Assembly: GCF_000025705.1 (NCBI RefSeq)
Contig: NC_013959.1
Coordinates: forward strand, 2,240,001-2,304,000
DNA from: Sideroxydans lithotrophicus ES-1
GTDB lineage: Bacteria; Pseudomonadota; Gammaproteobacteria; Burkholderiales; Gallionellaceae
Reading direction: 5' to 3'
DNA: 64,000 nucleotides
The translations under genes were made by a program, and so were the position numbers. This document shows positions 22,961 through 49,587 of this stretch, piece after piece. Under the pieces are notes generated by a model. That model was not told the origin of the DNA. It saw only the letters and a program-made list of their open reading frames with translations, and did no database searches. The stretch's first letter is position 1, and the number at the start of each line of letters is the position of its first letter.

Positions 22961-23066
22961 GCGAGCAATTCGAGAGCAAGGCGCACGGAGCGCAGCGACC
23001 GAAACATACCTGTGGGTAGGCGAGGGAGTGAGCACCGCGCAACGCCGCTATCGAATTGCGCAGTAG
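22961..23066. repeat. Structured dispersed element, copy 1 (ispF-tsaB gap)
   Basis: The sequence between ispF and tsaB matches elements at 42217-42376 and 49422-49587. Shared blocks are GCAAGGCGCACGGAGCGCAG (22975-22994) and GAGCACCGCGCAACGC (around 23030-23045). An outer helix pairs GCAATTCGA (22965-22973) with TCGAATTGC (23051-23059). An inner hairpin pairs TACC (23007-23010) with GGTA (23015-23018). The arms differ between copies but stay complementary. Confidence 0.8.
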
Positions 23067-23083
23067 ATTGAAAGAGGTTTCCA

Positions 23084-23563
23084 TCAGGCCACCAGCAACA
23101 ACGCCACCGCCTGCGCCGCGATGCCTTCGCCGCGGCCGGTATAGCCGAGATGTTCGGTGGTGGTGGCCTTCACGTTCACGGCGTGGTGCGCGATGCCGAG
23201 GTCGGCGGCGATGTTGGTGACCATCTGCGGGATGTGCGGCGCCATCTTCGGCGCTTGCGCGATGATGGTGGCGTCCACGTTGCCGATGCGATAACCGGCG
23301 GCCTCGATCTTCTTCGCCACGTCGCGCAACAGCAGGCGGCTGTCGATGTCCTTGTATTTCGCATCGGTGTCGGCGAAGTGTTTGCCGATATCGCCCAGCG
23401 CCGCCGCCCCCAGCAATGCGTCGCAGATCGCATGCAGCAGCACGTCCGCATCGGAATGACCGAGCAGGCCTTTGCTGAACGGAATATCCACTCCTCCAAT
23501 GATCAGCTTGCGTCCCGCCACCAGTTGGTGAACGTCGAAACCTTGTCCGATACGCATGGTCAT
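23084..23563 (-). CDS. ispF: 2-C-methyl-D-erythritol 2,4-cyclodiphosphate synthase
   Basis: 159 aa from the ATG at 23563, overlapping the ispD stop (ATGA). The zinc-site motifs GFDVHQL and [18 protein letters not shown] are intact, as is [18 protein letters not shown]. It makes the cyclodiphosphate in the MEP isoprenoid pathway. The open frame runs further upstream inside ispD, but that is not part of the protein. The ispD-ispF pair is separate, not fused. Confidence 0.96.
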
Positions 23564-24240
23564 TTTCCTTGTTGAAGCAACAGTTCGGCCAGCACGATGT
23601 CCTGCGGATAGGTCACCTTGAAGTTGCTGGTGTCGCTGGCCACCAGTTTCGGTTGCAGCCCCAGCGCTTCGATGGCTCCGGCATCGTCGGTGATGTTGCT
23701 GGAACGGGCCAATGCTTCCGCCAGCAATCCGGCACGAAACATCTGCGGCGTCTGCGCCTGCCACAATCCTTCGCGCGGCTCGGTATGGGCGATGCGCTGC
23801 TGGGCGTCGGCACGCTTCAGGGTATCCGCCACCGGCACCGCCAGAATGCCGCCCACCGGATCGTCGCGCAGTTCGGCGATCATGCGCGCCAGCAGGTGCG
23901 CACTCAGGCAAGGCCGTGCCGCATCGTGCACCAGCACCCAGTCGTCCGGCTCCAGCTCGGATGCCAGCAGGCCGTTCTCCACGCTCTCGGCTCGCGTCTT
24001 GCCGCCGCAATACAGCGGTGCCAGCTTGTCCTTGCAATGCGACCAGTCGTAGCGCGCGAAATACTCGTCTTCCGGCGCCAGCACCACGAACACGGTCTTG
24101 ATATTGGAATTGGCACAAAGGGTGGAAAGCGCGTGCCAGATCATCGGCCGGCCGGCCAGATCGAGATATTGCTTGGGCAACTCGTTGCCCATGCGTGCGC
24201 CGAAACCGGCGGCGGGGACTAAAGCGTAGAAATCGGACAT
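23560..24240 (-). CDS. ispD: 2-C-methyl-D-erythritol 4-phosphate cytidylyltransferase
   Basis: 226 aa from the ATG at 24240; a TTG nine codons upstream is a weaker alternative, and no clear ribosome site is seen for either. The nucleotidyltransferase loop is [19 protein letters not shown], with [10 protein letters not shown] and [14 protein letters not shown] further on. It couples CTP to methylerythritol phosphate in the MEP pathway. It lies 48 bp downstream of the HD-GYP gene on the same strand. Confidence 0.95.
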
Positions 24241-24288
24241 GGGCAGGAGTTTACCAAACTCCCGCAATCCGAACGCGGGATTGAGCGA

Positions 24289-25920
24289 TCAGGCGAACGC
24301 GAATCCCGCCTCGATCACCTGGCAGCAGGCATCGACCACCAGCGCATCATAGCTCACACCGCGGTTGGCAACGATCTCTTCCAGTGCTGCCTGCATACCC
24401 AGTCCGGGGCGATAGGGACGGTAGGAAGCCATGGCTTCAACCACATCGGCCACCGCGATGATGCGCGTTTCGAGCAGTATCTCCTCGCCCTTCAACCCGT
24501 CCGGATAGCCGGAGCCATCCTGCCGTTCATGATGAGAGCGCACCATCTGCGCGATGGGCCAGGGGAAATCGACGTCCTTGAGAATCTCATAGCCGACTCC
24601 CGGGTGCCGTTTGATCAAGTTGAACTCGGTACCGTCAAGCGTCCCGGGCTTGCTCAGGATCTCCGCCGGCACGCCGATCTTGCCGACATCGTGCACCGTC
24701 CCGGCGAGGCGGATGCCGTGGATGCGTTCCGGTGCCAGCCCCATGCGGGTGGCGATCGCTACGGCAAGCTGCGCCACGCGCCGCTGATGTCCTGCAGTGT
24801 AGGGGTCGCGCATCTCCACAGTTGCTGCGATCGCCTGGATCGCATCTTCCAGTCCCTTGCGCAGTTGCGCAGCACTGCGCAGATTGATGATGCCGTAAGC
24901 GAGATCGCTGGCAAGTTCGCGCAGCAGGCGGATCTCCTCTTCGTCGAAGGCATTCGTTTCGGCGGCATCGATGGTGATGGCGCCAAAAGCATGCCCCTCG
25001 CTATCCATCAGCGGCAACGCAAGTATGGAGGCACACTTGCACGCGATCGCTTCCGCGCGCCAGGGGGCAAAGCGCGGATCCGTATAGGCATCCTTTACCT
25101 CCTGCAGTTCGCCGCTGCGGATGGCCGCGCCTGTCGGCCCGCGCCCGAACTCGTCATCAGCCCAGGTGTGACGCAGGTTCGCAAAGGTATCCGCCGCGAC
25201 CCCATACTGCGCCATGGGACGCACCGACTTTTGCTCATCCTGCTGGGCATAGCCGACCCAGGCGACCTGATAGCCGCCGATCTTGACCACCACGCGGCAC
25301 ATTTCCCGCAGCAGCATGGTCTCGTCCTTGGCCCGCACCAGGACCTCATTGCCCGAGCTCAGCGTCGTCAGCACACGATTGGCCTTGCGCAGGCTTTCCA
25401 GGGCTGCATCGCGCTCGGTGATCAGCCCTGCGCTATAGGCATCAAATTGCCGGCATAGCAGTATCGCCTTGGCCAGATTCGCCATCACCGGCTGGAAGAT
25501 GCGCGTGAACGGCAGCTCGCTTTCCGGAAGGTTTTGCCCAAGCAACAGGATCACGCCATTGCCATCGATGGGGAGGCGCAGAAAAACAGAATAAGAATTC
25601 CCCCCGCCATGCAGCGATCCAAGCAAGTCCGGGTCCTTGCGCAACTCGGGGCCGCCGCGCAGCAATGCCGAGGGCAGCGTCAATATGCGACCGACGCTTT
25701 CGACCAGCTCGAAGTCCCCGACAACCGCCTCAAGGCGGGCTTCGACTGACGCCGCACCGGTTGCGGGCGGCAGATCGAGGAACACCAGGCCCGCCGGGAA
25801 CGATGTATGGTAAAGCAGCTGCTGCAAGGTTTTGGTCAACAGCGGCTTCACGCTCACCTCGCCACCGATGGCCAGGGTGATCTCGTAAAGCACAGTCAGG
25901 ATTTGCTGTTCGTTGCGCAT
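24289..25920 (-). CDS. GAF-domain HD-GYP phosphodiesterase
   Basis: 543 aa, no membrane segment. Residues ~1-170 look like a degenerate GAF domain, ~195-345 form a clear GAF domain (EMCRVVVKIGGYQVAWVGYA, ASILALPLMDSEGHAFGAIT) and ~355-540 an HD-GYP domain. The latter has RDPYTAGHQRRVA, the HD pair in GTVHDVGKIGVP, RSHHERQDGSGYPDGLKG and AVADVVEAM. HD-GYP enzymes hydrolyse cyclic-di-GMP to GMP, so this probably opposes the cyclases nearby. It is divergent from mfd. Confidence 0.92.
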   Translation of the reverse strand: MRNEQQILTVLYEITLAIGGEVSVKPLLTKTLQQLLYHTSFPAGLVFLDLPPATGAASVEARLEAVVGDFELVESVGRILTLPSALLRGGPELRKDPDLLGSLHGGGNSYSVFLRLPIDGNGVILLLGQNLPESELPFTRIFQPVMANLAKAILLCRQFDAYSAGLITERDAALESLRKANRVLTTLSSGNEVLVRAKDETMLLREMCRVVVKIGGYQVAWVGYAQQDEQKSVRPMAQYGVAADTFANLRHTWADDEFGRGPTGAAIRSGELQEVKDAYTDPRFAPWRAEAIACKCASILALPLMDSEGHAFGAITIDAAETNAFDEEEIRLLRELASDLAYGIINLRSAAQLRKGLEDAIQAIAATVEMRDPYTAGHQRRVAQLAVAIATRMGLAPERIHGIRLAGTVHDVGKIGVPAEILSKPGTLDGTEFNLIKRHPGVGYEILKDVDFPWPIAQMVRSHHERQDGSGYPDGLKGEEILLETRIIAVADVVEAMASYRPYRPGLGMQAALEEIVANRGVSYDALVVDACCQVIEAGFAFA

Positions 25921-26012
25921 GGCTCACTTCGTTCCGGTAGTACGCAACCAGAATATGATCATGCGACGGATGATAGCCCCATTGGTCGGGAATTCCCATG
26001 GGCCGGCGCAAC

Positions 26013-26053
26013 CATTGGGCGCTGTCATCAGCGCCCAATGTCGAGAGTATAAT
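26013..26053 (+). promoter_or_regulatory. mfd promoter region with a perfect 12-bp dyad
   Basis: CATTGGGCGCTG (26013-26024) and CAGCGCCCAATG (26029-26040) form a perfect dyad with a 4-nt centre. A consensus -10 box, TATAAT (26048-26053), starts 8 bp later, 28 bp before the mfd GTG. The dyad covers the position of the -35 box. The flanking genes diverge, so it is not their terminator; an operator is the simplest reading. Confidence 0.6.
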
Positions 26054-26080
26054 GCGCGCCTTTGTTTCAGGTTGTCCGCC

Positions 26081-29000
26081 GTGCTTTTCTCGTCCAAACA
26101 TTCCCGTCCGCGCTATTCGAACCTGCAGGGTTCGTCCGACGCACTGGCCCTGGCGCAATACGCCGTACAACACTCTCCGCTGGTGATCATCGCCGCCAAT
26201 GCGCTGGAGGCGCAGCGACTGGTGGAAGAAATCCCGTTTTTCGACCCCAAGCTCAGGGTTCATTTATTACCCGACTGGGAAACGCTGCCTTACGATCACT
26301 TCTCGCCGCACCAGGACCTGATCTCAGAGCGCTTGGCCACGCTGCACCATATCCGCAGCATCGGGCAACAAACCGCCCGCCCCTCTCCTCAATCCTCTCC
26401 CGCAAGCGGGAGAGGAAGCGAACGAGAGAATCAATCTTCAACCTCCGCCTGCGATGTCATCGTGGTGCCGATAACCACTGCGCTGTACCCGCTGCCGCCG
26501 GTTTCATACTTGGCCGCCTACACCTTCTTCCTGAAAAAGGGCGAACGCCTCGACCTCGACGCCTTCCGCCAGCAAATGACGCTGGCCGGCTACAACCACG
26601 TGCAGCAGGTACTCACCCCCGGCGAATACTGCGTGCGCGGCGGCATCATCGACCTGTTCGCCATGGGCAGCGTGCTGCCCTACCGCATCGACCTGTTCGA
26701 CGACGAGATCGAGACCATCGCCACTTTCGACGTCGATACCCAGCGCACCCTGTATCCGGTACCGGAGATACGCCTGCTGCCCGCGCGCGAGTTTCCGCTG
26801 GACGAGAAAGGCCAGGCCACCTTCCGCCAGAACTTCCGCGACCGCTTCGAGGGCGACCCGTCCAAATCCCGCATCTACAAGGATGTGAGCAAGGGCATCG
26901 CCCCGGCGGGCATCGAGTACTACCTGCCGCTGTTCTTCGACCAGACCGCGACGCTGTTCGACTACCTGCCGAAGATCGCCACACTGTGCCTGCATCACAA
27001 CGTGGACGAGGCTATCACCAGTTTCGGCAAGGATGCCGCCTCGCGTTACAACCTGCTGCGCGGCGACCCGCAGCATCCGCTGCTGGAGACGAAGGAGCTA
27101 TTCCTGGATGGGGAGCAGTTCTTCATCCGGGCGAAAGAGTTCGCGCGGATAGATGTGATTGCCGCGAGCGCTCCCTCACCCCTAGCCCCTCTCCCAGAGG
27201 GCGAGGGGAATTTAAGCTCCCTCTCCCCCGGGGAGGGGGTTGGGGTGAGGGAAGACTCTAAAAACACCACCCGCTGCTCGACCGCCGCAATCCCACCCAT
27301 CGCCGTGGATCGCCGCGCCGAAGTCCCCACGCAGAAGTTCGCCGACTTCCTGCGTGCTTATGCCGGACGCGTGCTGCTGCTCGCCGAAAGCCTCGGCCGC
27401 CGCGAGATCATGTCCGGCTACCTGAAGGAATACGGCCTCACGCCTGCCGTGTGCGAAGACTATGCTTCATTCCTCGCCGGCCAAGACAAGTTCATGCTCG
27501 GCGTCGGCCCGGTGCAGATCGGCTTCAGCCTTCCGGATGAACAGCTCGCCATCGTCACCGAGACCGAACTCTATGCCGCGCAACCCAGAAGCAGAGCCAA
27601 TCGCGCCGCCAGGAAGAGCAACGTCGAAGGCATGCTGCGCGACCTGTCCGAACTCAAGCCGGGCGACCCGGTGGTGCACGAGCAGCACGGCATCGCGCGC
27701 TACCGGGGGCTGGTGAACCTCGACCTCGGCGAAGGCGAGAACGAGTTCCTGCTGCTGGAATATGCGGGCGAGGATAAACTGTACGTGCCGGTCTCACAGC
27801 TGCACGTGATCAGCCGTTACAGCGGCGGCGCGGCGGAAGCCGCACCGCTGCACAAGCTGGGCAGCGGTGCGTGGGACAAGGCCAAGCGCCGCGCCATGCA
27901 GCAGGTGCGCGACACCGCCGCCGAACTGCTCAACATCTATGCCCAGCGCGCCACGCGCAAGGGCCATGCGTTCAAGCTCACCTACCACGACTATGAGGCG
28001 TTCGCCGCCGGCTTCGGCTTCGAGGAGACCGCCGACCAGGCCGCCGCCATCGAAGCCGTGCTGCTCGACCTGCAATCGGGAAAACCGATGGACCGCCTCA
28101 TTTGCGGCGATGTCGGTTTCGGCAAGACCGAGGTCGCGTTGCGTGCCGCCTTCGTTGCGGCCAGCGAAGGCAAGCAGGTAGCGGTACTGGTACCGACTAC
28201 GCTGCTGGCCGAACAGCATTTCCAGAACTTCTCCACCCGTTTCGCCGACTGGCCGATCAGGATCGCCGAACTGTCGCGCTTCCGCTCGGCCAAAGAGGTG
28301 ACGCAGGCACTGAAGGACTTGGCGGACGGCAAACTGGACATCGTCATCGGAACGCACAAGCTGATCCAGAAGGACGTGAAGTTCCACAACCTCGGCCTGG
28401 TCATCCTGGACGAGGAACACCGCTTCGGCGTACAGCAGAAAGAAAAACTGAAGGCATTGCGCGCCGAGGTCGACGTGCTCACGCTCACCGCCACGCCGAT
28501 CCCGCGCACGCTGGCGATGTCGCTGGAAGGCCTGCGTGACTTCTCGGTGATCGCCACTGCGCCGCAGCGCCGCCTTTCCATCAAGACCTTCGTCAGCGGC
28601 TTCAGCCAGGGTGTGATCCGCGAAGCCGTGCTGCGCGAACTCAAGCGCGGCGGACAGGTGTACTTCCTGCACAACGAGGTCGACACCATCGCCAACATGC
28701 TGGAGAAGCTGGAGACGCTGCTGCCGGAAGCGCGCATCCGCGTGGCCCACGGCCAGATGGGCGAACGCGACCTGGAAGCGGTGATGCGCGACTTCCACCA
28801 CCAGCGCTTCAACGTATTGCTGTGCTCCACCATCATCGAAACCGGCATCGACGTGCCCACCGCCAACACCATCATCATGAACCGCGCCGATCGCTTCGGC
28901 CTCGCGCAACTGCACCAGCTGCGCGGCCGCGTCGGTCGTTCGCACCACCAGGCCTATGCCTACCTGCTGGTGGACAGCATGGACGGCCTCACTGCACAGG

Positions 29001-29653
29001 CGAAAAAACGCCTCGAAGCGATCCAGGCCATGGAACAACTGGGCAGCGGCTTCTTCCTCGCCATGCACGACCTGGAGATACGCGGTGCCGGCGAAGTGCT
29101 GGGCGAATCGCAGAGCGGCGAGATGCAGGAGATCGGTTTCAGTTTGTATAACGACATGCTCGCTGCCGCCATCGCTTCGCTCAAGCAAGGCAAAGAACCA
29201 GACATGACACACCCGCTGGGCGTGACCACCGAGATCAACCTGCACACGCCCGCATTGCTGCCCAACGACTACTGCGGCGACATCCACCAGCGCCTGATCA
29301 TCTACAAGCGGCTGGCGAACTGCGACACACAGGAAGACCTGGACGACATGCAGCAGGAACTCATCGACCGCTTCGGCCTGCTGCCCGAACCCGCGCAGAC
29401 CCTGCTCGACAGCCACCGCCTGCGCATCCTCGCCAAGCCGCTCGGCATCAGCAAGGTGGACGCTTCAAGTGAAGCCATCGTGATCCAGTTCGTGCCGAAC
29501 CCGCCCATCGACCCGATGAAGGTCATCACCATGATCCAGAGCAAGCGGCATATCAAGATGGCGGGGCAGGACAAGCTGCGAATCGAGTTGAAGTATGGGG
29601 ATCTGCAGCAGCGGGTGTTGGCGGTCAGGAATTTCTTTGGGGAATTGAAGTAA
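26081..29653 (+). CDS. mfd: Transcription-repair coupling factor, with two in-frame repeat insertions
   Basis: 1190 aa from a GTG; E. coli Mfd has 1148. The UvrB-like module, RNA-polymerase-interacting segment (GDPVVHEQHGIARYRGL) and RecG-like motor (GDVGFGKTEVALRAAF, LDEEHRFG, TATPIPRTLAMS, QLRGRVGRS) are complete. Mfd removes stalled RNA polymerase and recruits UvrAB. Two segments look foreign: residues ~98-124 (Ser/Arg/Gly-rich, encoded by a palindrome at 26394-26415) and ~361-405 (around [15 protein letters not shown], encoded by the 79-bp inverted repeat at 27173-27251). Both keep the frame and sit at points where relatives have short loops. Confidence 0.95.
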   Translation: MLFSSKHSRPRYSNLQGSSDALALAQYAVQHSPLVIIAANALEAQRLVEEIPFFDPKLRVHLLPDWETLPYDHFSPHQDLISERLATLHHIRSIGQQTARPSPQSSPASGRGSERENQSSTSACDVIVVPITTALYPLPPVSYLAAYTFFLKKGERLDLDAFRQQMTLAGYNHVQQVLTPGEYCVRGGIIDLFAMGSVLPYRIDLFDDEIETIATFDVDTQRTLYPVPEIRLLPAREFPLDEKGQATFRQNFRDRFEGDPSKSRIYKDVSKGIAPAGIEYYLPLFFDQTATLFDYLPKIATLCLHHNVDEAITSFGKDAASRYNLLRGDPQHPLLETKELFLDGEQFFIRAKEFARIDVIAASAPSPLAPLPEGEGNLSSLSPGEGVGVREDSKNTTRCSTAAIPPIAVDRRAEVPTQKFADFLRAYAGRVLLLAESLGRREIMSGYLKEYGLTPAVCEDYASFLAGQDKFMLGVGPVQIGFSLPDEQLAIVTETELYAAQPRSRANRAARKSNVEGMLRDLSELKPGDPVVHEQHGIARYRGLVNLDLGEGENEFLLLEYAGEDKLYVPVSQLHVISRYSGGAAEAAPLHKLGSGAWDKAKRRAMQQVRDTAAELLNIYAQRATRKGHAFKLTYHDYEAFAAGFGFEETADQAAAIEAVLLDLQSGKPMDRLICGDVGFGKTEVALRAAFVAASEGKQVAVLVPTTLLAEQHFQNFSTRFADWPIRIAELSRFRSAKEVTQALKDLADGKLDIVIGTHKLIQKDVKFHNLGLVILDEEHRFGVQQKEKLKALRAEVDVLTLTATPIPRTLAMSLEGLRDFSVIATAPQRRLSIKTFVSGFSQGVIREAVLRELKRGGQVYFLHNEVDTIANMLEKLETLLPEARIRVAHGQMGERDLEAVMRDFHHQRFNVLLCSTIIETGIDVPTANTIIMNRADRFGLAQLHQLRGRVGRSHHQAYAYLLVDSMDGLTAQAKKRLEAIQAMEQLGSGFFLAMHDLEIRGAGEVLGESQSGEMQEIGFSLYNDMLAAAIASLKQGKEPDMTHPLGVTTEINLHTPALLPNDYCGDIHQRLIIYKRLANCDTQEDLDDMQQELIDRFGLLPEPAQTLLDSHRLRILAKPLGISKVDASSEAIVIQFVPNPPIDPMKVITMIQSKRHIKMAGQDKLRIELKYGDLQQRVLAVRNFFGELK
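26394..26415. repeat. Palindromic repeat inserted in frame in mfd (first)
   Basis: Two 10-bp arms, CCTCTCCCGC and GCGGGAGAGG, flank a 2-nt AA centre. The arms lie in a low-complexity CT/GA stretch (26380-26431) that encodes a tract unlike Mfd. The core CCCGCAAGCGGG recurs in the moxR-DUF58 gap (13343). Confidence 0.85.
27173..27251. repeat. 79-bp inverted repeat inserted in frame in mfd (second)
   Basis: The left arm, starting CCCTCACCCCTAGCCCCTC (27173-27195), is complementary to the right arm ending GGGGTTGGGGTGAGGG (27230-27251). Shorter palindromes lie inside. The same family occurs twice in mutS (53141-53178 and 53208-53242). It is a MITE-like or REP-like element by structure; no transposase is seen. 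Confidence 0.88.
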
Positions 29654-29659
29654 GTATTC

Positions 29660-29694
29660 AGCCCGTTCGGGCTGAGCCTGTCGAAGTATGAACG
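29660..29694. repeat. REP-like repeat directly after mfd
   Basis: The hairpin AGCCCG-TT-CGGGCT (29660-29673) is followed by GAGCCTGTCGAAG and a TGAACG end. This motif (TTCGGGCTGAGCCTGTCGAA) is widespread in proteobacterial intergenic regions. It begins 7 bp after the mfd stop and may also end transcription, though there is no T-run. Confidence 0.65.
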
Positions 29695-29814
29695 TTCCGC
29701 AAAACCAACACCGCCGGGGATTGCAGCGCCATATATCGAGCTAGTGATAAACGCTATCAGAAATATCCGCTAAAATGGCGCATCATCAGCCTCAACTGAG
29801 GAGTGTCGCCTGAT

Positions 29815-30066
29815 ATGTTCAGCCAACGCTTTCAACGTCCCGTTGTCGTTTCTGCCCATGCGCGAATACGCATGGAGGAACGAGAAATCAGCGATACGAT
29901 GCTGCTTGAGGTGATTGATTCGGGCGAAACGCGATACAAGGACACAACCCACTTGTGGGCGTTCAAGGAATTCCCGGCACGGCACGATAATTTGTTGTGC
30001 GCCATTCTGGTATTGGAAGATTGCGTGGTCGTTAAAACGGTCATGCACCATTTCACGGTTTTGTAG
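29815..30066 (+). CDS. DUF4258 small protein (possible toxin)
   Basis: 83 aa from the ATG at 29815 (GAGGAG 11 bases upstream); a GTG at 29803 is less likely. The DUF4258 pattern is visible: SAHARIRMEEREIS near the start and HDNLLCAILVLEDCVVVKTVMHHF at the end, an RNase-like alpha/beta fold resembling RelE/BrnT relatives. It is followed after 9 bp by a DUF2283 gene, a pairing repeatedly seen in predicted toxin-antitoxin modules. Activity is not established. Confidence 0.65.
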   Translation: MFSQRFQRPVVVSAHARIRMEEREISDTMLLEVIDSGETRYKDTTHLWAFKEFPARHDNLLCAILVLEDCVVVKTVMHHFTVL

Positions 30067-30075
30067 GAGGTTGCC

Positions 30076-30273
30076 ATGCACACTACTTATTTCGACGAAG
30101 ACGACATTCTCGTTATCCGACTTTCGGACAAACCGATCGTGCGCGAAGTTTCGCAAAACTGGAATACACACATCAGTTATGCCGAAGACGGTTCCACTGT
30201 TGAAGTGGTGCTGCTGGAGGCGCGCGCCAATGGTGCGTATCCGCTGGATGTTCAACACGCACGTGCAGCCTGA
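30076..30273 (+). CDS. DUF2283 small protein (possible antitoxin)
   Basis: 65 aa, ATG with TAGGAGG five bases upstream. It matches DUF2283 (YFDEDDILVIRLSDKP, REVSQNWNTHISYAEDGSTV, EVVLLEARA). Residues 1-50 form the small beta-domain, and the short C-terminal tail may contact the partner. It is translated right after the DUF4258 gene, so the two are probably co-regulated. Confidence 0.65.
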   Translation: MHTTYFDEDDILVIRLSDKPIVREVSQNWNTHISYAEDGSTVEVVLLEARANGAYPLDVQHARAA

Positions 30274-30378
30274 ATATTTCAGAATAAAACGCGATATACC
30301 TCAAATCGCCAGCATTATCCGGTTTGCTCAGTTTATTCATCATTCAATCAGGGGCAGGCTAAGGCCCGCCCCCTCTTC

Positions 30379-31227
30379 TTACATCGCCACTTTTACTGCT
30401 ACAGCCAACGGTGTCGTCGGCCTGCCGATGAGCTTGCTCAATTGATGGCTGTCGTCGAATAGCCCACCTTTGGATACGCCCGTGTCCGAATCGGAAAGCA
30501 AGTCGGCGACCGGTTCCGGCAACCCCACCTTGATCAGCACATTCTTGTACTCGGCTTCCAGCAGGTTCACGTAGCCGATGTCTTTTCCGGACTGACGCGA
30601 TATCTCTGCCGCCAGCTCAGCCAGCGTGTAAGCGCTATCGCCTGCCAGTTCATAGACTTTCCCGGATTGTCCATCTGCCGCGATCACAGCAACGTCGGCT
30701 TCCGCATAGTCGGCACGCGCGGCCGATGAGATGCGGCCATTGCCGGCGCAGCCATACACGGCGCCATGCGCCAGTGCGCCGGGGATACCTGCGGTGTAGT
30801 TCTCCGTGTACCAGCCATGGCGCAGCAATACGAAAGGCACGCCGGAGGCGCGGATATAAGCCTCGGTCTCCCTGTGTTCGGCGGCAAGCCCAAGCGGGGA
30901 AGTGTCGGCGCGCAACACGCTGGTATAAGCCAGCAGTTTCACACCTGCCTTTTTGGCTGCATCGATGACGGCTTTGTGCTGTTTCGCACGCTGACCGATC
31001 TCGCTGGACGAGATCAGCAGCACTTTGTCCGCGCCTTTCAGCGCTGCGTCCCAGCTTGCGGGCTGGTTGTAATCGGCAAAGCGCACTTGCACGCCCAATG
31101 CTGCAAGGTCTTTGGCCTTGTCCACATTGCGCACAGCGGCAACGATGCCCGAAGCCGGGACCTTCTTCAGCAATGCCTTGATAACCAGATGACCCAGTTG
31201 TCCGGTGGCTCCAGTGACGACGATCAT
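30379..31227 (-). CDS. qorB: NAD(P)H:quinone oxidoreductase, QorB/YtfG type
   Basis: 282 aa, NmrA-like atypical short-chain dehydrogenase. The nucleotide loop VTGATGQLGHLVI is at the N-terminus. The sequence follows E. coli YtfG (AAVRNVDKAKDLAALGVQVR, LLISSSEIGQRAKQH, LLRHGWYTENY). It reduces quinones with NADPH. It is divergent from an HxlR-family regulator with a palindrome in the gap, the same layout as the ytfG-ytfH pair of enterics. Confidence 0.88.
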   Translation of the reverse strand: MIVVTGATGQLGHLVIKALLKKVPASGIVAAVRNVDKAKDLAALGVQVRFADYNQPASWDAALKGADKVLLISSSEIGQRAKQHKAVIDAAKKAGVKLLAYTSVLRADTSPLGLAAEHRETEAYIRASGVPFVLLRHGWYTENYTAGIPGALAHGAVYGCAGNGRISSAARADYAEADVAVIAADGQSGKVYELAGDSAYTLAELAAEISRQSGKDIGYVNLLEAEYKNVLIKVGLPEPVADLLSDSDTGVSKGGLFDDSHQLSKLIGRPTTPLAVAVKVAM

Positions 31228-31285
31228 GATGTTTCCTTTCGTGATTTATAGTTAATGGATTGGTGAGCCGAAGCTTATCCTGTAC

Positions 31286-31302: not shown

Positions 31303-31323
31303 ACGTACAAAAAGGTAAGTGTC

Positions 31324-40278: not shown

Positions 40279-40310
40279 GCGGAAAATTCATTTACCGAAA
40301 GGACAAGATC

Positions 40311-40826: not shown

Positions 40827-40841
40827 GACCACGTTGACCGC

Positions 40842-41261: not shown

Positions 41262-41271
41262 GAGGCCAATA

Positions 41272-41496: not shown

Positions 41497-42009
41497 TCAG
41501 CGTTTCTTCCAGCCGACGAACAGCGCAAACACGCCCAGCAGGATGTACCAGATCAAAGACCACTCCGGAATGCCGAGTGTCAGGAACGTCCACCCCTTGG
41601 CGGCGCATTCGCCGGAGCCGTGCATCAGCTCCTGCAACACATCGGACATCGGGAAATGCTTCAGCATGAAATCGAGTCCGGGACCGCAGGCAGGAATCTG
41701 ATCCTTGGGCAGATGCTGTATCCAGATATGGCGTCCGGCGACGGCTATGCCACCTGCAGCGAAGAGGGCGATCAGGGCCGAGTAGATCCGGCTACCGACC
41801 CTGCCGGCATTGAACAAGGCGGCGATGAAGAACAGCACGCCGATGACGATGAAGATCACCCGCTGTATCATGCACAGCGGACAGGGTTCCTGACGCAATA
41901 CGTATTGCAGATACAGTGCCGAGCAGAACAAGGCCCCCACCACCAGCGCACCGGCGAGGTACAGCCAGCGTTTTGACATGCTATCCCAATATTTCAGCAT
42001 GCCACTCAT
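41497..42009 (-). CDS. dsbB: Disulfide bond formation protein DsbB
   Basis: 170 aa. Four membrane helices with the quinone-facing Cys43-Pro-Leu-Cys46 (EPCPLCMIQR) and a second periplasmic Cys pair (in PACGPGLDF and GSGECAAKGW). DsbB reoxidises DsbA and passes electrons to quinone. The ATG at 42009 overlaps the iscX stop (ATGA), so it is translated from the isc-operon tail, an unusual setting. Confidence 0.93.
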   Translation of the reverse strand: MSGMLKYWDSMSKRWLYLAGALVVGALFCSALYLQYVLRQEPCPLCMIQRVIFIVIGVLFFIAALFNAGRVGSRIYSALIALFAAGGIAVAGRHIWIQHLPKDQIPACGPGLDFMLKHFPMSDVLQELMHGSGECAAKGWTFLTLGIPEWSLIWYILLGVFALFVGWKKR

Positions 42010-42197
42010 GCCTCATCCATCCATGCAGTCTGAATAGCCTCCAGCACCTTCTCGCCGCCGCGGCTGTGGTCGTCATCGAAACCATCAAGATCGACCACGT
42101 AATTGTGCAGATCGACGAAGCGCACCTTGCTCGGGTCGATGTCGGGATATTTTTCGGCCAATGCGATCGCGATATCGCGGACGTCTATCCATTTCAT
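42006..42197 (-). CDS. iscX: Fe-S cluster assembly protein IscX
   Basis: 63 aa from the ATG at 42197. Small acidic IscX fold (KWIDVRDIAIALAEKYPDID, VRFVDLHNYVVDLDGF). It binds IscS and iron and tunes cluster assembly. It is separated from fdx by a 193-bp gap filled by the structured element, whose antisense frame gives a false N-terminal extension. It is coupled to dsbB by a 4-nt overlap. Confidence 0.92.
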   Translation of the reverse strand: MKWIDVRDIAIALAEKYPDIDPSKVRFVDLHNYVVDLDGFDDDHSRGGEKVLEAIQTAWMDEA

Positions 42198-42216
42198 ATG
42201 AGAGCCCCAGTAAATT

Positions 42217-42376
42217 GTAGCGAGCAGTTCGAAAGCAAGGCGCACGGAGCGCAGAAACCGGAATGTACAGCTAGTACATGAGGATTTCGAGCACCGCGCA
42301 GACAATTCCGCATCTGGCTTGCCAGATAGCGGATTGCGTACCGTTGGTGCAACGCAGTTTTCAAATTGCGCAGTAA
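42217..42376. repeat. Structured dispersed element, copy 2 (fdx-iscX gap)
   Basis: Shares GCAAGGCGCACGGAGCGCAG (42235-42254) and GAGCACCGCGCA (42290-42300) with copies 1 and 3. The outer helix pairs GCAGTTCGAAA (42224-42234) with TTTCAAATTGC (42359-42369), 10 of 11 positions counting one G-T. The inner hairpin is ATGTAC-AGCTA-GTACAT (42263-42279). An extra hairpin, ATCTGGC-TT-GCCAGAT (42312-42327), is unique to this copy. Confidence 0.8.
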
Positions 42377-42390
42377 ATTTATGGGGACTC

Positions 42391-42735
42391 TCATTTTGAG
42401 TGACCTTCCTTCGCCATGTTGATGGTGTACTTGGGTATCTCGACCACCAGATCCTGTTTGCCGACGATGGTCTGACAGCTCAGGCGCGAGTTGGATTCCA
42501 GCCCCCACGCCTTGTCCAGCAGATCCTCTTCCTGCTCAGTCGCTTCCTCCAGGCTGTCAAACCCTTCGCGCACGATGACGTGGCAAGTCGTGCAGGCGCA
42601 GGATTTTTCGCAGGCATGCTCGATCTCGATGTCGTGCTCCAGCAGCGCATCGCAGATGGAAATACCGGGCTCGACCTCGAACAGTGCACCTTTCGGGCAC
42701 AACTCCACATGCGGCAAAACGATGATCTGAGTCAT
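42391..42735 (-). CDS. fdx: ISC-type [2Fe-2S] ferredoxin
   Basis: 114 aa. Cluster ligands are in HACEKSCACTTCHV (Cys42, 48, 51) and SRLSCQTI (Cys88). It supplies electrons for cluster assembly on IscU. It lies 1 bp after hscA in the isc operon. Confidence 0.96.
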   Translation of the reverse strand: MTQIIVLPHVELCPKGALFEVEPGISICDALLEHDIEIEHACEKSCACTTCHVIVREGFDSLEEATEQEEDLLDKAWGLESNSRLSCQTIVGKQDLVVEIPKYTINMAKEGHSK

Positions 42736-42736
42736 G

Positions 42737-44605
42737 TCACCTCTCCAAGTCGGCCAGTCTATGTCCGGTCAGCGCATGTTTCACACTTTGATCCATGCGG
42801 CGCTGGGCGAACTCGGTCGTCGCCATGTTCAACGCCTCGACGGCCCGTTTGATCGCCTGATGGTCACTGCCGCCGAGTACCACCCTCAAGGCATCCATGC
42901 TGCGGCGGATGCGCACCTGCGCTTCAGCATCCAGCAACGCATCGCCATCCTGCTGCAGCGCATTATCCACCGCCTCGAGCAATTGCGCTGCCTCGGTCTG
43001 CTGCTCGCGCAAAGCTCGTGCCTTCATGTCATCGTGTGCGTGGCGGGTGGAATCCTGCAGCATGCGGGCGATCTCCTCATCGCTCAGACCGTAGGAGGGT
43101 TTGACCGTGATGTTCGCTTCGGTGCCGCTGGCCATCTCGCGCGCCGAAACGCTGAGCAGGCCATCGGCATCCACCTGGAAAGTAACGCGGATGCGCGCAG
43201 AGCCGGCCACCATCGGCGGAATGCCGCGCAGCTCGAATTTCGCCAGCGAGCGGCAATCGCTCACCAATTCGCGTTCGCCCTGCACCACGTGGATGCTCAT
43301 GGCGGTCTGTCCATCCTTGTAGGTCGTGAATTCCTGCGCACGCGCATTGGGTATCGTGCTGTTGCGCGGAATGATCTTCTCGACCAACCCGCCCATGGTC
43401 TCGATGCCCAGGCTCAGCGGAATCACATCCAGCAGCAGCCAGTCGTCCCCGCCGCGATTGCCAGCCAGCACATTGGCCTGGATCGCGGCCCCCAGGGCAA
43501 CGACCTTGTCCGGGTCGAGATTGTTCAGCGGAACCTGTTTGAAGAACTCCCCTACCGCGTGCTGCACTTGCGGCATGCGGGTCGAGCCGCCAACCATCAC
43601 GACGCCCTTGATGTCTTCCACTTTCAGCCTGGCATCGCGCAAGGCGCGGCGCGTAGCCTGCAAGGTGCGCGCCACCAGGTTCTGCGTCATTTCGTAAAAG
43701 TCATCGCGTTTGAGCGTCAGATCGACCAGCTCGCCCTGGCCCATCACCGCGGTGATCTGTGTCTGCGGCAGTTCGGTAAGCTGCTCCTTGGCACCGCGCG
43801 CATGCGTCAGCAGCAAGCGCGTGTCATGCGCACTCAGGGCGGACATGCCGGCCTTCTCCAGCATCCAGCAATAGATGCGATGGTCGAAATCGTCGCCGCC
43901 CAGGGCCGAATCGCCGTTGGTGGACAGCACTTCGAACACCCCCTTGGAAAGCCTCAGGATCGATATGTCGAAGGTGCCGCCGCCGAGGTCGAACACTGCA
44001 TACACGCCTTCGGCAGCGTTATCCAGCCCATAGGCGATGGCAGCGGCAGTGGGCTCGTTGAGGAGCCTCAGCACGTTGAGCCCCGCCAGTCTGGCTGCAT
44101 CCTTGGTGGCCTGGCGCTGGGCATCGTCGAAGTAGGCTGGCACAGTGATCACCGCGCCGACCAACTCCCCACCCAGCGATAGCTCGGCCCGCTCGCGCAA
44201 CACCTTGAGTATCTCGGCCGAAACTTCTACGGGACTCTTGATGCCGGCAACGGTGCGCAATTGCAGCATGCCGGGCGCGTCGACGAAGCGATACGGCAGG
44301 TTGCCGACTTCGCCCACGTCCTTGAGGCTGCGCCCCATGAAGCGCTTGACCGAAACGATGGTGTTTTGCGGATCTTCGCTCTGCACGGCCTGGGCTTCCT
44401 GGCCGACTTGGACACTGCCATCCGGCGCATAACGCACCACCGAAGGCAGCAACGCACAGCCGTGAATGTCATTCAGCACCGTGCTGATGCCGTTGCGCAC
44501 GGTCGCCACAAGTGAATTGGTCGTACCGAGGTCGATGCCGACCGCCAGCCGATGCTGATGGGGAGCGGCGCTGAGGCCGGGTTCTGCGATTTGCAACAGT
44601 GCCAT
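42737..44605 (-). CDS. hscA: Fe-S cluster chaperone HscA
   Basis: 622 aa, Hsp70 family. ATPase domain (~20-385: [40 protein letters not shown]). Substrate-binding beta domain (~390-510) and helical lid, with no DnaK-type EEVD end. It takes clusters from IscU by binding its LPPVK motif, which is present in the iscU product here. It lies 9 bp after hscB. Confidence 0.96.
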
Positions 44606-44614
44606 TATTGTTGT

Positions 44615-45157
44615 TTAAGAATCTAATTCGTCGAACGCGGAACCGATCTCTTCCGCCAGTTTCTCTAGAAATCTGAGCTTGCGAACTATACCGGAAGCTG
44701 CGGTGTAATCGCGAGTCTCGTCCATATCGATAGCGAGTTGCTGTTGCAGATTCCGCACCTCATGCTGCATGCGCTGTTCCAGCTCTTCCAGTGCCGAATT
44801 GTCTTTCGCCTGCCTTGCTGCTTCCAGCGCTTCGCGCCATTCCATCTGCTGCATCAGGAAATCGGTCGGCATCGCCGTGTTGCTCTCCTCCTGCGTGTCC
44901 ACGCCATGCAGCGACAACAAATAGCGCGCGCGGCTCTGCGGATTGCGGAGAGTCTGGTATCCCTCGTTGACACGGGTCGCCCATTGCATGGAAAGGCGGC
45001 GCTCCGCCTCGGAAAGATGAGCAAATTTATCGGGGTGGACTTGCGCCTGCAGCTCAAGGAAGCTTCTCTCCAGCGCGGCACTGTCGATCTTGAATAATGA
45101 AGGTAAGTTGAAGAGCTGGAAGTGATCCTGCTGGAAATCCAACGTCAGAATATTCAT
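44615..45157 (-). CDS. hscB: Co-chaperone HscB
   Basis: 180 aa from the ATG at 45157, overlapping the iscA stop by one base (TGATG). N-terminal J domain (~10-80) with HPD in QVHPDKFAH, and a C-terminal three-helix bundle that binds IscU. It delivers IscU to HscA and stimulates its ATPase. The open frame extends ten codons into iscA, which is not coding. Confidence 0.94.
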   Translation of the reverse strand: MNILTLDFQQDHFQLFNLPSLFKIDSAALERSFLELQAQVHPDKFAHLSEAERRLSMQWATRVNEGYQTLRNPQSRARYLLSLHGVDTQEESNTAMPTDFLMQQMEWREALEAARQAKDNSALEELEQRMQHEVRNLQQQLAIDMDETRDYTAASGIVRKLRFLEKLAEEIGSAFDELDS

Positions 45158-45480
45158 CAAACCTTGAAGCTTTCCCCGCAGCCGCACTGATCCTTCACGT
45201 TCGGATTGTTGAACTTGAACCCCTCGTTCAACCCCTCGCGCGTGTAATCGAGTTCCATGCCGTCGATATAGGGCAGGCTGTGCTGGTCGACCAGCACGGT
45301 CACACCGTTGCTGACGAACTGCAGGTCTTCGCTATCGACCGCATCGGCGAACTCCAGCTTGTAGGCCATGCCGGAACAACCGCTGGTGCGCACGCCGAGA
45401 CGCAGACCGACGCCCTTGCCGCGTTTGGCCAGGAAATTCTGCACATGTTTCGCCGCATTTTCAGTCAACGAGATGGTCAT
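45157..45480 (-). CDS. iscA: A-type Fe-S carrier IscA
   Basis: 107 aa. The three ligand Cys are present: Cys35 ([10 protein letters not shown]) and Cys99/Cys101 ([11 protein letters not shown]). It carries Fe-S clusters or iron to apo-proteins. It lies 12 bp after iscU and one base into hscB. Confidence 0.96.
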
Positions 45481-45492
45481 GCTGAGCTCCAG

Positions 45493-45909
45493 TCATTTAT
45501 TGCCGTTACAGGCTGCTGTCTCCAGCGTTGCGCCATTCTTTGCCTTGTAATCCGCCACTGCCGCCTTGATCGCATCTTCCGCCAGGATCGAACAGTGTAT
45601 CTTCACCGGCGGCAATGCCAGCTCTTCGGCGATGTGGGTGTTCTTGATCGCCAGCGCCTGATCGACTGTCTTGCCTTTGACCCACTCGGTGACGAGCGAG
45701 CTGGATGCGATAGCCGACCCGCAACCGTAAGTCTTGAATTTGGCATCTTCGATGAGACCGTCCTTGCCGACCTTGATCTGCAGCTTCATCACATCGCCGC
45801 ATGCCGGCGCACCGACCATGCCGGTGCCGACATATGCGTCGTCCTTATCCAGGGAACCGACGTTGCGCGGATGTTCGTAGTGATCCAGTACTTTTTCGCT
45901 GTAAGCCAT
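45493..45909 (-). CDS. iscU: Fe-S scaffold IscU
   Basis: 138 aa. The cluster site is Cys37, Asp39 (GAPACGDVMK), Cys63 (YGCGSAIASSS) and Cys106 (HCSILAED). LPPVKIHC is the HscA-binding motif. It is the scaffold on which clusters are built. It lies 10 bp after iscS. Confidence 0.97.
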   Translation of the reverse strand: MAYSEKVLDHYEHPRNVGSLDKDDAYVGTGMVGAPACGDVMKLQIKVGKDGLIEDAKFKTYGCGSAIASSSLVTEWVKGKTVDQALAIKNTHIAEELALPPVKIHCSILAEDAIKAAVADYKAKNGATLETAACNGNK

Positions 45910-45919
45910 TATGTCCTCC

Positions 45920-47134
45920 TTAATGTGCAGCCCACTGCACAGTATTCATATCTATGCCATCCTTGTACATATCCCATAAGGGGGATAAGTCACGAAGTTT
46001 GGCAATCTTTTCCTGCAGCAGTTTCACTGTGTAATCAACCTCTTCCACCGTGGTGAAACGTCCGACCGTGAAACGGATCGAGCTGTGCGCCAATTCATCG
46101 TTGCGCCCCAGAGCACGCAGCACGTAGGAAGGCTCCAGGCTGGCCGAGGTACAGGCGGAGCCGCTGGAAACCGCGACATCCTTGACCGCCATGATGAGCG
46201 ACTCACCCTCGACGAAGTTGAAGCTCACATTCAGATTGTGCGGCACGCGGTGTTCCATATCGCCATTGAGGTAGACCTCTTCCATGCCGGACAACCCCTT
46301 CCACAAGCGGTCGCGCAACATGCGGATGCGCTCGTTCTCGCTTGCCATCTCTTCTTTGGCGATGCGGAACGCCTCGCCCATGCCGACGATCTGGTGCGTC
46401 GGCAATGTGCCGGAACGGAAACCGCGCTCATGTCCGCCGCCATGCATCTGCGCTTCCAGACGCACACGCGGTTTGCGCCGCACATACAGAGCACCGATGC
46501 CTTTCGGGCCGTAGGTCTTGTGCGCCGAGAACGACATCAGGTCGATTTTGAGCTTTTGCAGATCGATACCCACCTTGCCGGTCCCCTGCGCCGCATCGAC
46601 GTGGAACAGGATGCCGCGCTCGCGGCATATCTCGCCGATGGTGGCAACATCCTGGATCACTCCGATCTCGTTGTTCACCAGCATCACCGACACCAGCGTG
46701 GTATCCGGACGCAGCGAAGCCTTGAACTTGTCCAGGTCGAGCAAACCATTCGGCTCGGGATCCAGATAAGTGGCAGCGAATCCCTGCCGTTCCAGTTCGC
46801 GCACGGTATCCAGCACGGCCTTGTGCTCGGTCTGCACGGTGACGATATGCTTGCCCTTGTCCGCGTAAAAATGCGCCGCGCCCTTCAGGGCAAGATTGTT
46901 CGATTCGGTCGCACCCGAGGTCCACACGATCTCTTTCGGATCGGCATTGACCAAAGCAGCAACCTGCTCGCGCGCACGCTCCACCGCTTCATCCGCCGCC
47001 CAGCCGAAAGAATGCGAACGAGAGGCGGGATTACCGAATTTCTCGGTGAGATACGGGATCATCGCCTCGGCCACGCGCGGATCGACCGGTGTGGTTGCGG
47101 AATAATCCATATAGATCGGCAAATGCAGCTTCAT
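45920..47134 (-). CDS. iscS: Cysteine desulfurase IscS
   Basis: 404 aa from the ATG at 47134 with a strong AGGAGG site; the frame is open 12 codons upstream. The PLP lysine is in [12 protein letters not shown] and the catalytic Cys in [14 protein letters not shown]. It supplies sulfur for clusters and for tRNA thiolation. The leader before it contains a doubled hairpin. Confidence 0.97.
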
Positions 47135-47148
47135 TACATTCCTCCTGT

Positions 47149-47254
47149 AACCAATGAGTTGACCCGGCATCTTTGCCGGTCAAGCCAGCTGCCTATAACC
47201 AACGACTCGCCCGGCGTGTTTTGCCGGGACAGTCAGAAGGCAGTAGTCAATCAG
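47149..47254 (-). repeat. Tandem hairpin leader between iscR and iscS
   Basis: Two similar ~50-bp units each hold TAACCAA, a stem-loop and a CTGCC/GGCAG edge. Hairpin A is CCGGCA-TCTT-TGCCGG (47164-47179). Hairpin B is CCCGGC-GTGTTTT-GCCGGG (47210-47228). They sit where enteric iscR-iscS leaders carry the RyhB-controlled mRNA structure. No T-run follows, so attenuation by termination is unlikely; mRNA stability control is possible. Confidence 0.6.
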
Positions 47255-47261
47255 TTTTATA

Positions 47262-47744
47262 TCAAGCAGGCACTCGTGCAGCAGTGTCGGCCTTCGTCGC
47301 CATCGTGATGGGAGCGATCTCGGAAACGCCAGCCTTGCTCTGAATCTGACCGTCGACCAGTTGCTGAAGATTGATCTTGCTCAGATATTCGTGGATCGCC
47401 TCATTCAGGCCAAACCACAGATCATGGGTCAGACAAGGTTTGCCGTCTGCACAATTGCCTCGCGTCCCGCATTGCGTTGCGTCCAGCGCCTCATCCACGG
47501 CAGTGATGATATCTACCATCGATATCTTGTTCGCAGGGCGCGCCAGACAATAGCCGCCACCCGGACCGCGCACGCTGGCCACCACATTGTTGCGGCGCAA
47601 CTTGCCGAACAACTGCTCCAGATAAGACAGCGAGATCTTCTGCCGCTCGCTGATTCCTGCCAGCGTCACGGGGCCCTTGCCGCCGCGCATCGCCAGATCC
47701 ACCATTGCCGTTACTGCAAACCGCCCTTTCGTCGTGAGTCGCAT
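47262..47744 (-). CDS. iscR: Fe-S sensing transcriptional regulator IscR
   Basis: 160 aa from the ATG at 47744 with AAGGGGA upstream. Rrf2-family winged helix (MRLTTKGRFAVTAMVDLA, SLSYLEQLFGKLR, VRGPGGGYCLAR). The [2Fe-2S] ligands Cys92, Cys98, Cys104 and His107 match E. coli IscR numbering. It represses the isc operon when clusters are plentiful. It heads the operon, with its own promoter just behind cysE. Confidence 0.96.
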   Translation of the reverse strand: MRLTTKGRFAVTAMVDLAMRGGKGPVTLAGISERQKISLSYLEQLFGKLRRNNVVASVRGPGGGYCLARPANKISMVDIITAVDEALDATQCGTRGNCADGKPCLTHDLWFGLNEAIHEYLSKINLQQLVDGQIQSKAGVSEIAPITMATKADTAARVPA

Positions 47745-47839
47745 AACATTCCCCTTCTTCAAATTAAACCAGATGCGGCGAACTGCCGCCCGTTACCCAT
47801 TCGCATTTTGAGGGCGTTATCCCTCTAACTTCTGAGGGC

Positions 47840-47868
47840 ATCATAGAATACCTGATTCTTTTAATCAA
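47840..47868 (-). promoter_or_regulatory. isc operon promoter
   Basis: On the minus strand, TTGATT (47863-47868) and TATGAT (47840-47845) are exactly 17 bp apart, giving a ~90-nt leader to iscR. It overlaps the end of cysE closely. I could not find a convincing type 1 IscR site, though autorepression is expected. Confidence 0.6.
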
Positions 47869-47874
47869 CTTCTT

Positions 47875-48606
47875 TTAATCGACTATCTTATTTAGATGGT
47901 TCGGATCGAATTTATCGGCGGTGGCACGCTCTTCTTCCACGCGCACGCCCATCTTTTCCAGCTGCTGCAGAATGAAGTCGATGCGCTGATCGACAGTGAC
48001 GCTATGCCCGATCAAACCGTGCAGGGTCTTGGCGACCGGATCGTTCTGGTCGTTGCCGATGGCATAGGCCTTGAAGCCATGGTCGGCCTTCTTCTCCTCA
48101 TCCAGGATGCGCGCGGGGATACCGGCAGCCGTCGCGCCCGCGGGCACGTCCTTCACCACCACGGCATTGGAACCGATCTTGGCGCCATCGCCGATATGGA
48201 TCGGGCCGAGCACCTTGGCGCCGGCGCCGATCACCACGCCGTTGCCCAGTGTCGGATGGCGCTTGCCCTCTTTCCACGAAGTACCGCCCAGCGTCACGCC
48301 GTGATACATGGTCACATCGTCGCCGATCTCGGCAGTCTCGCCGATCACCACGCCCATGCCATGGTCGATGAAGAAGCGCCGCCCGATGGTCGCCCCGGGA
48401 TGTATCTCGATGCCGGTGAACCAGCGCGCGAAGTGCGAGATGAAACGCGCCAGCCATTTCAGGCCGACGTGCCACAGCGTGTTGGACATGCGATGGAAGA
48501 TGCGCGCATGCAGCCCCGGATAGCAGGTCAGCACCTCGAAAGTATTGCGCGCCGCCGGATCGCGGTCGAATACGCTGGCGATGTCTTCGCGAATATTTTT
48601 AAACAT
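47875..48606 (-). CDS. cysE: Serine O-acetyltransferase
   Basis: 243 aa, short CysE form. N-terminal helices ([20 protein letters not shown]), then left-handed beta-helix hexapeptides with the catalytic His/Asp region ([20 protein letters not shown]) and [20 protein letters not shown]. It makes O-acetylserine for cysteine synthesis, upstream in purpose of IscS. It overlaps trmJ by 8 nt and precedes iscR, a grouping common in beta- and gamma-proteobacteria. Confidence 0.94.
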
Positions 48607-49363
48607 CTTTGTGCTCTTCCAGATAGCGTTTTCTCAGACGGGCATTGTACTCGGTTGCCACGGTCAGCATGCCGCGCAGGATATTGATCTCCTCATCCTC
48701 CAGCCGGGTACGCGAGTACAGGCGACGCAGACGCTGCATCAACCGCGCCGGATTCTGCGTGGTGAAGAAACCGATCTCGAACAGCGTCTTTTCGAGATGT
48801 GCATACAAACCTTCGACACGTTCATGCGTGGCAGGTTCGATCTGCGGGATGGCCGGGGTAAAGCTCTGTGCCGCCACGTTCAGCTCATAGGCCATCACTT
48901 GCACCGCCGCCGCGATATTGAGCGAAGAGAAATCGGGGTTCGCCGGAATGTTCACGCCCAGCTGCGCCTTGCCCATCTCTTCGTTGGTCAGGCCGGACAT
49001 CTCGGTGCCGAACAACAGGGCCACCGGATTGCTGGCAGCATGCTGCAACACTTCCGGCATCGCCTCGCGCGGCGCCTTCACCTCAATGGAGATGTCGCGC
49101 AGGCGCGCCGTCATCGCCACGGTGAACACCACGCCTTGCAGCGCCTCGTCGATGGAACTGCACACCACCGCACTCTGCAGGACATCGTCCGCACCGGCAG
49201 CCATCGCCGTCGCCTGTGCATCGGGGAAATAACGCGGATTGATCAAGTACAGATGCTGCAACCCCATGGTCTTCATCGCCCGCGCAGCCGCGCCGATGTT
49301 GCCAGGATGGGTGGTGTGGCTGAGCACCACACGGACATTCTCTAAAGGATTAGGTTTATTCAA
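48599..49363 (-). CDS. trmJ: tRNA (cytidine/uridine-2'-O-)-methyltransferase TrmJ
   Basis: About 254 aa from a TTG at 49363; no ATG or ribosome site lies near the true N-terminus ([20 protein letters not shown]). The frame runs to 49549 only through the repeat. SPOUT fold with [18 protein letters not shown] and [20 protein letters not shown]-like knot motifs, plus a C-terminal dimerisation tail (~165-254). It methylates position 32 of tRNAs. The poor start suggests that the inserted element upstream changed its translation signals. Confidence 0.85.
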
Positions 49364-49421
49364 AACGCAATACCAACTAAAATACGGGCTGGTTAAATCA
49401 ATCGGAACTTCGGGCAACCGT

Positions 49422-49587
49422 CGCGAGCGGCTTGAGTGCAAGGCGCGTGGAGCGCAGAACACGAGACATATCTGACAGATAGGCGAGTGTTTCGAGCACC
49501 GCGCAACGCAGCGAGCGGATGGGTGGCGATGTAACCGCCGGGCACCCACCGGCCTGCCCCTTGCGGGTAAATCAAGTCGCGCAGCAG
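49422..49587. repeat. Structured dispersed element, copy 3 (trmJ-suhB gap)
   Basis: Shares GCAAGGCGCGTGGAGCGCAG (49438-49457) and GAGCACCGCGCAACGC (49494-49509) with the other copies. The outer helix pairs GCGGCTTGA (49427-49435) with TCAAGTCGC (49572-49580), 9 of 9 counting one G-T. The inner hairpin is TATCT-GAC-AGATA (49469-49481). The 265-bp gap around it has no other gene. Confidence 0.78.

Follow-up and report, generated by a model that had tools for sequence, protein, structure and literature searches.

Miniature inverted-repeat transposable elements (MITEs) usually keep their ends while their inside varies. Integron attC sites and the ends of IS200/IS605 elements keep structure over sequence, favour one strand and have an orientation tied to replication. 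We analysed here a window of 64,000 nt of Sideroxydans lithotrophicus ES-1 (NC_013959.1, positions 2,240,001-2,304,000, in a genome of 3,003,656 bases; "window" designates this whole stretch) containing three copies of an element of about 144 bases. Like the IS5-family MITEs, this element is short, gene-free, multicopy and intergenic, with inverted-repeat ends of the IS5 type and, for one end type, 4-base target duplications. It differs from them in that its folded core hardly varies across several end types, whereas the ends and the inner arm change and stay complementary. Its left half has, on the minus strand, the same sequence as sX9, a Xanthomonas small RNA; the 76-base RNA model of sX9 covers half of the element, but that model does not include the fold of the complete element, in which the wobbles favour the opposite strand. 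With REP (repetitive extragenic palindromic) sequences, REPINs (REP doublets) and their REP-associated tyrosine transposases (RAYT), it shares a chromosomal, intergenic position and imperfect palindromes, as well as GTAG or CGTC near one arm end, as in the REP classes that the title of PMC3733652 names; unlike them, it has IS5-type ends and duplications, and the RAYT domain does not track its copies. As in attC sites and IS200/IS605, its fold is kept over sequence, its plus strand is favoured and its orientation is tied to replication, but neither an integrase nor a HUH transposase was linked to it here, and its ends are of DDE type. The unusual features are a core that is conserved while the matched ends drift, a fold maintained on one strand once the element has inserted, and the identity with sX9. 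No description of the element was found in the literature on sX9, the core sequence, MITE/IS5 and REPIN, in which mostly non-subscription journals were covered.

By its parts, the element is a non-autonomous transposable element of the MITE type, related to IS5. Our overall reading, which we consider probable, is that of a MITE with IS5-type ends, mobile in trans, whose fold is kept on its own plus strand. Since its ends resemble IS5-family ends, it is most likely moved in trans by IS5-type transposases, which would also produce the 4-base duplications. It often settles at gene borders, where the following gene may use one of its ends as a Shine-Dalgarno site. Five parts make up the one long imperfect hairpin that the plus strand is predicted to form: the terminal repeats; an internal loop, in which a motif is conserved; an inner arm whose sequence changes while its pairing holds; the core helix, almost without variation; and an inner hairpin, which changes as well. 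Compensatory changes after insertion keep the arm paired through G.U steps on the plus strand, whatever the strand of the neighbouring genes, and the selected object would be the plus strand itself as a single strand, perhaps bound by a protein at the invariant core.

Selection for structure had already been proposed in a sequence-only reading of the window, in which paired changes at two helices were opposed to a decaying repeat. Three copies are insufficient for this claim, but larger sets support it; the either/or was an oversimplification, since this transposable repeat also keeps its structure. An alignment of 81 relatives (A1) was obtained from 146 candidates, after removal of 44 by a filter on end complementarity, one by a motif filter, and 20 near-duplicates. 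In this alignment, 87.2% of the cells were paired in the structure outlined above, compared with 69.4% after shuffling and 33-40% after sliding the partner, and 585 two-sided changes were counted versus 205, the structure having been chosen on the same alignment as was used for the count. The end-complementarity filter favours the end helix by construction; for the inner arm, which was not filtered, two-sided change was seen at 9 of the 12 pairs, and columns 38 and 117 displayed all four Watson-Crick types (33, 23, 16 and 5 of 81). The nearly invariant core helix is uninformative on covariation. Some non-standard pairs changed together as well.

Conservation of the pairing after insertion was analysed on orthologous insertions. 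A covariance model, R1, was built from A1, and the elements found with it lean to the structure of A1. The sample comprised 120 copies from the genus of the window (those first among the R1 genus matches, and others), which were grouped by flanking sequence: 67 elements formed 25 sets of two to five, and 53 remained singletons; seven of the 120 fetched elements, in which the motif was not found, were dropped. The test was restricted to ungapped arms, which kept 61 elements and dropped 52. It excluded, as did the count on A1, the always-mismatched position next to the core, a G.A unpaired in 53 of the 61 elements, as well as the pair L223/L225, which has a common flank but no common element. 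This left 15 sets, with 39 elements and 420 cells, the cells within a set sharing sequences and therefore not being independent. In the inner arm, 31 two-sided changes were found for 7.7 expected, a fourfold excess; 24 of them were Watson-Crick before and after, and they occurred in 8 of the 15 sets. The count over the 113 elements with unrestricted arms, which mixes arms offset by one base, gave 40 two-sided changes versus 11.5 in the orthologs. Because two-sided changes exceed expectation in orthologous insertions, we conclude that the pairing of the inner arm is kept after insertion. The element provides one fold in many natural replicates, at insertion sites that are known.

One-sided changes from Watson-Crick pairing in the orthologs produced plus-strand G.U 39 times and A.C 5 times; set by set, nine favoured G.U and none favoured A.C. 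Over the 61 ungapped-arm elements, the counts were 52 and 6. When both neighbouring genes were on the minus strand (28 elements), G.U exceeded A.C by 23 to 4, or 13 to 2 with one element per set, and when both were on the plus strand (13 elements), by 11 to 1, or 8 to 1. Gene strands were assigned by a codon score with a margin, which is still rough; coarser counts were unreliable, since shadow frames score well. As the G.U excess is alike whichever strand carries the neighbouring genes, the read-through mRNA is not the selected object, and the fold under selection belongs to the plus strand of the element itself, either as single-stranded DNA or as an RNA of its own. The plus strand also folded better than the minus strand, for arm and core in 77 of 81 elements with DNA parameters and 45 with RNA parameters, and for the whole element in 76 and 53, respectively. 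With dnaA as the origin and its antipode taken as the terminus, 55 of 78 copies in four genomes (G000, G004, G024 and G056) faced against the fork (p 0.0004), and no clear co-directional gene-strand bias was seen for these 78 copies (23 minus pairs, 17 plus pairs). Folding parameters and fork orientation are weak pointers to single-stranded DNA, although the molecule may be a plus-strand RNA made by the element; we infer that the selected object is more likely DNA than RNA.

The transposable character was apparent from the ends, the duplications and the copy number. In 79 of the 132 distinct elements, the two members of the best end pair were located at -39 to -32 and +102 to +115 relative to the core; longer modular copies fell outside this range. 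A loose search gave an end pair of at least 11/16 in 130 of the 132, and among the representatives from the window's genus, 64 of 78 had a pair of at least 12/16. For ends of the GGAAACGCTGAA type, identical 4-base flanks were observed in 20 of 36 cases (mean 3.9 and maximum 10 in 2000 shuffles); at width 5 no flanks were identical, and at width 3 one case was. Open IS5-family transposase frames were found twice (NF033581, 302 and 305 bits), between ends of the GGAAACGCTGAA and CAGGCTGTTGAA kinds, and the insertion sequence (IS) at L151, in a congener, has TTAA on both sides. The ispF-tsaB site, occupied by copy 1 in the window, was empty in all seven relatives searched, the two flank matches being at most 11 bases apart. 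RAYT was also considered as mobiliser and rejected, the Y1 domain not tracking copy number: genome G056 has 40 copies and no Y1_Tnp, G011 has no copy (E 1e-8) and seven Y1_Tnp, and G021 three copies and ten.

The three copies of the sequence-only reading turned out to belong to a larger set: in the window's genome, R1 detected 19 copies at E <= 0.001, these three among them, and 17 at E <= 1e-8. On the window at E <= 1, exactly the three copies were returned, the right end of copy 3 being undershot because of an extra module. The exact 20-base core pattern was present in at least 119 stretches across sequence records; among the 119 matches listed, which extend over many beta- and gamma-proteobacteria, 15 came from other groups (including Geobacteraceae, Sphingomonads and Chloroflexi) and two were assigned only to Proteobacteria. 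This pattern was found in 19 of 61 genomes, and R1 copies at E <= 1e-8 in 32 of the 34 genomes of the window's genus, its own genome included in both counts. Over ten genomes, copy numbers at E <= 0.001 ranged from 1 to 40, the 40 being in G056, and the genome of Salinicola peritrichatus (L096) had 54 at E <= 1e-6. Two plasmid records matched in one query, and one query on phages gave no match at that search sensitivity.

Several results weigh against the overall reading. Concerning the fold and its strand, the unrestricted 113 elements gave 114 G.U for 102 A.C, a near-equality that we attribute to arms offset by one base. The orientation bias is significant alone in G000 only (p 0.019; 0.08 to 0.38 in the others), and left neighbours lean the same way (38 minus, 23 plus). 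The Rfam sX9 family lies on the minus strand, and we know of no protein that binds the element. As for mobility, a 4-base duplication was found in just 5 of 17 cases with CAGGCTGTTGAA-type ends (1.3 expected, shuffle maximum 6), and none was detected in 64 elements of the window's genus, where 0 to 3 were identical per tested border, within the range of shuffles. Copy 1 has no exact target duplication, and the IS at L154, from a genome of the same order, has no matching flanks. A PF01609 search of the window's genome gave no match, so that the element may be immobile there; this, together with the lack of a detectable duplication in the genus, suggests that insertions in the genus are probably old.

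In Rfam, sX9 (RF02228) covers the left half of the element on the minus strand. At the gathering cut-off, no match was found on the window, copy 3 included. Copy 1 gave no RF02228 match, and copy 2 gave one at 42209-42279 on the minus strand, at 37.9 bits (gathering 44, E 1.4e-5). The loci of 20 relatives gave four RF02228 matches at E <= 0.01, one of them above gathering (45.1 bits, L017). Among 60 genomes of the family of L138, sX9 matches were present in seven and above the cut-off in three, with up to 29 in one genome; 17 of the 20 loci returned from this family matched the full element model. The full model was also matched, at 28 to 72 bits, by 8 of the 11 loci whose sX9 match exceeded the cut-off, and inspection of these 11 by eye showed a left half, an inner hairpin and a complementary right half. 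We conclude from these matches that the sX9 model most likely describes half of the element, which would be a warning against counting sX9 matches as regulators. A table of the 20 most prevalent bacterial small RNAs lists sX9 with no entry for expression or function (PMC9029176). The other Rfam matches (E 0.9 to 6.9), to a group II intron, HTT antisense and sucA, were considered chance matches. At L006, 6S RNA and a cobalamin riboswitch (408-586 and 1223-1422) are located near one copy, an ordinary finding.

The match with sX9 raises the alternative that the element makes its own small RNA, which regulates genes in trans and whose fold is the one conserved. We regard this as doubtful, albeit with some chance of being correct. 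RF02228 does cover the left half on the minus strand, with the over-threshold sX9 loci being element copies; MITE-derived small RNAs were reported for Coxiella (PMC10969869), and a plus-strand transcript would likewise explain the wobble bias. However, this bias favours the plus strand, not that of sX9, and a consensus search for sigma-70-like promoters around copies 1 and 2 was negative. A bolder proposal, slightly more doubtful in our view, would be that this mobile element is recognised or protected in the form of a single folded DNA strand: a putative protein would bind its invariant core hairpin single-stranded, and the element, with interchangeable IS5-type ends and an orientation set with respect to replication, would have spread through the beta- and gamma-proteobacteria; sX9 would then be a misread half of it.

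Paired changes could also arise without selection, if template switching during replication copied one arm onto the other. This mechanism is known (PMC8794818), and in the ortholog L281 three adjacent bases differ from its relatives on both arms. Arm copying predicts no strand bias, however, and the one-sided G.U are common while A.C are rare (39 versus 5); moreover, conserved mismatches persist, such as the G.A beside the core. As the source of the paired changes it is therefore unlikely, although template switching may add to them, and the strand bias of intermediates makes it possible to test whether selection or template switching is their source. It is distinctly unlikely that the element is an ordinary MITE, in which the transposase constrains the ends alone and the inner pairing is a leftover. 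The ends, duplications and copy number fit such an element, but the two-sided changes after insertion affect the inner arm and not the ends. Furthermore, the ends differ between copies of one genome and yet match within a copy: identity was 0.74 within one copy, and 0.59 between the left end of one copy and the right end of another from the same genome in the same search, 3.2% of the between-copy comparisons reaching 0.74. Very unlikely, finally, is a REP-like role in which pairing is selected in the mRNA of the adjacent operon because the hairpin stabilises or terminates that transcript: copies do lie between co-directional genes (ispF-tsaB, ferredoxin-iscX) and persist at orthologous places, and one weak 5-pair terminator-like match is present inside copy 2 on the minus strand, but none was found at copy 1, and minus-strand neighbours imply a minus-strand mRNA, yet their elements have the plus-strand G.U excess (23 versus 4).

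Close to an end, 24 of the 78 genus representatives had a start codon that opens a frame of at least 85 codons and has a Shine-Dalgarno-like tetramer in reach; this tetramer often lay within the end repeat. At random positions, taken 60-300 bases away, the mean was 5.8 and the maximum 12 in 300 trials. Because this control was unmatched for closeness to gene starts, the result is suggestive that element ends are often placed where a ribosome-binding site is needed. In copy 1, the minus-strand reading of the left repeat provides AGAGG ahead of the ATG of the tsaB-like gene (AGAGGTTTCCACATG before this gene). Ends doubling as ribosome-binding sites may allow the element to come between overlapping genes of an operon while leaving the second one active. 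In L239 (with L278) and L251, the insertion is at overlapping stop-start codons, with TTGATG on both sides in L239, and TCAT (ATGA on the minus strand) on both sides, one base off, in L251; as the stop-start sequence stands on both sides, both genes keep their ends in L239 and L251.

Within the window, the shared motif GCAAGGCGC..GGAGCGCAG was recovered at 22976, 42235 and 49438, as first observed; at up to 3 mismatches it has three matches, for 0.10 expected, and none of 100 shuffles reached three. The second motif, GAGCACCGCGCA, is indeed present at 23030, 42289 and 49494 but is weak on its own, since 13 of 100 shuffles also reached three matches with one mismatch permitted. The outer arms and inner hairpins of all three copies are as the sequence-only reading wrote them. 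Complementarity of the outer arms holds, except that some pairs are not Watson-Crick: the copy 3 arm GCGGCTTGA/TCAAGTCGC contains one G.T, and that of copy 2, GCAGTTCGAAA/TTTCAAATTGC, one G.T and one C.A. All three copies are real, but their bounds had been placed too short, the inverted repeats continuing outward with a sequence that differs by copy (GGAAACCTCT../..AGAGGTTTCC, GAGAGCCCC../..GGGGACTCTC and CGGAACTTCGG../..CCAAAGTTCCG). The corrected elements, all on the plus strand, extend over about 22941-23082, 42200-42392 and 49403-49603.

Copy 1 (22941-23082) is flanked by ispF (YgbB, PF02542), ending at 23084, and by a tsaB-like gene (PF00814) starting at 22938, both on the minus strand. 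On its plus strand, the left terminal inverted repeat GGAAACCTCTGGCAATC occupies 22941-22957 and the right one 23066-23082, whose minus-strand reading begins with GGAAACC. The covarying inner arm (H2) has its two sides at 22963-22977 and 23047-23061, and the nearly invariant core at 22976-22995 and, for the right side GAGCACCGCGCAACGC, 23030-23045; the inner hairpin TACC/GGTA is at 23007-23018. Copy 2 (42200-42392) lies between a 2Fe-2S ferredoxin gene (PF00111) and iscX (PF04384), both on the minus strand, with the plus-strand inner hairpin ATGTAC/GTACAT at 42263-42279 and orthologous copies in genomes G024 and G027. Copy 3 (49403-49603) is flanked by a SpoU-methylase gene on the minus strand (PF00588) and an inositol-monophosphatase gene on the plus strand (PF00459); its inner hairpin TATCT/AGATA, on the plus strand, is at 49469-49481, and G007, G008 and G032 contain orthologous copies.

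Both longer copies contain an extra hairpin module, at about 42300-42349 in copy 2 and, of a different kind, at about 49510-49566 in copy 3. The copy 2 module recurs in further copies of the genome (L169, L325) and resembles the sucA RNA motif below threshold (17 bits, gathering 40, E 0.9); that of copy 3 is similar to one in L026. At L088, a single contig of a proteobacterial metagenome-assembled genome, five tandem cores were found over 1808-2390 with a spacing of 137-142 bases. In G056 (e.g. C1:950818-951089), end pairs occur at discrete spacings of 143, 206 and 272 bases, as if hairpin modules had been added stepwise.

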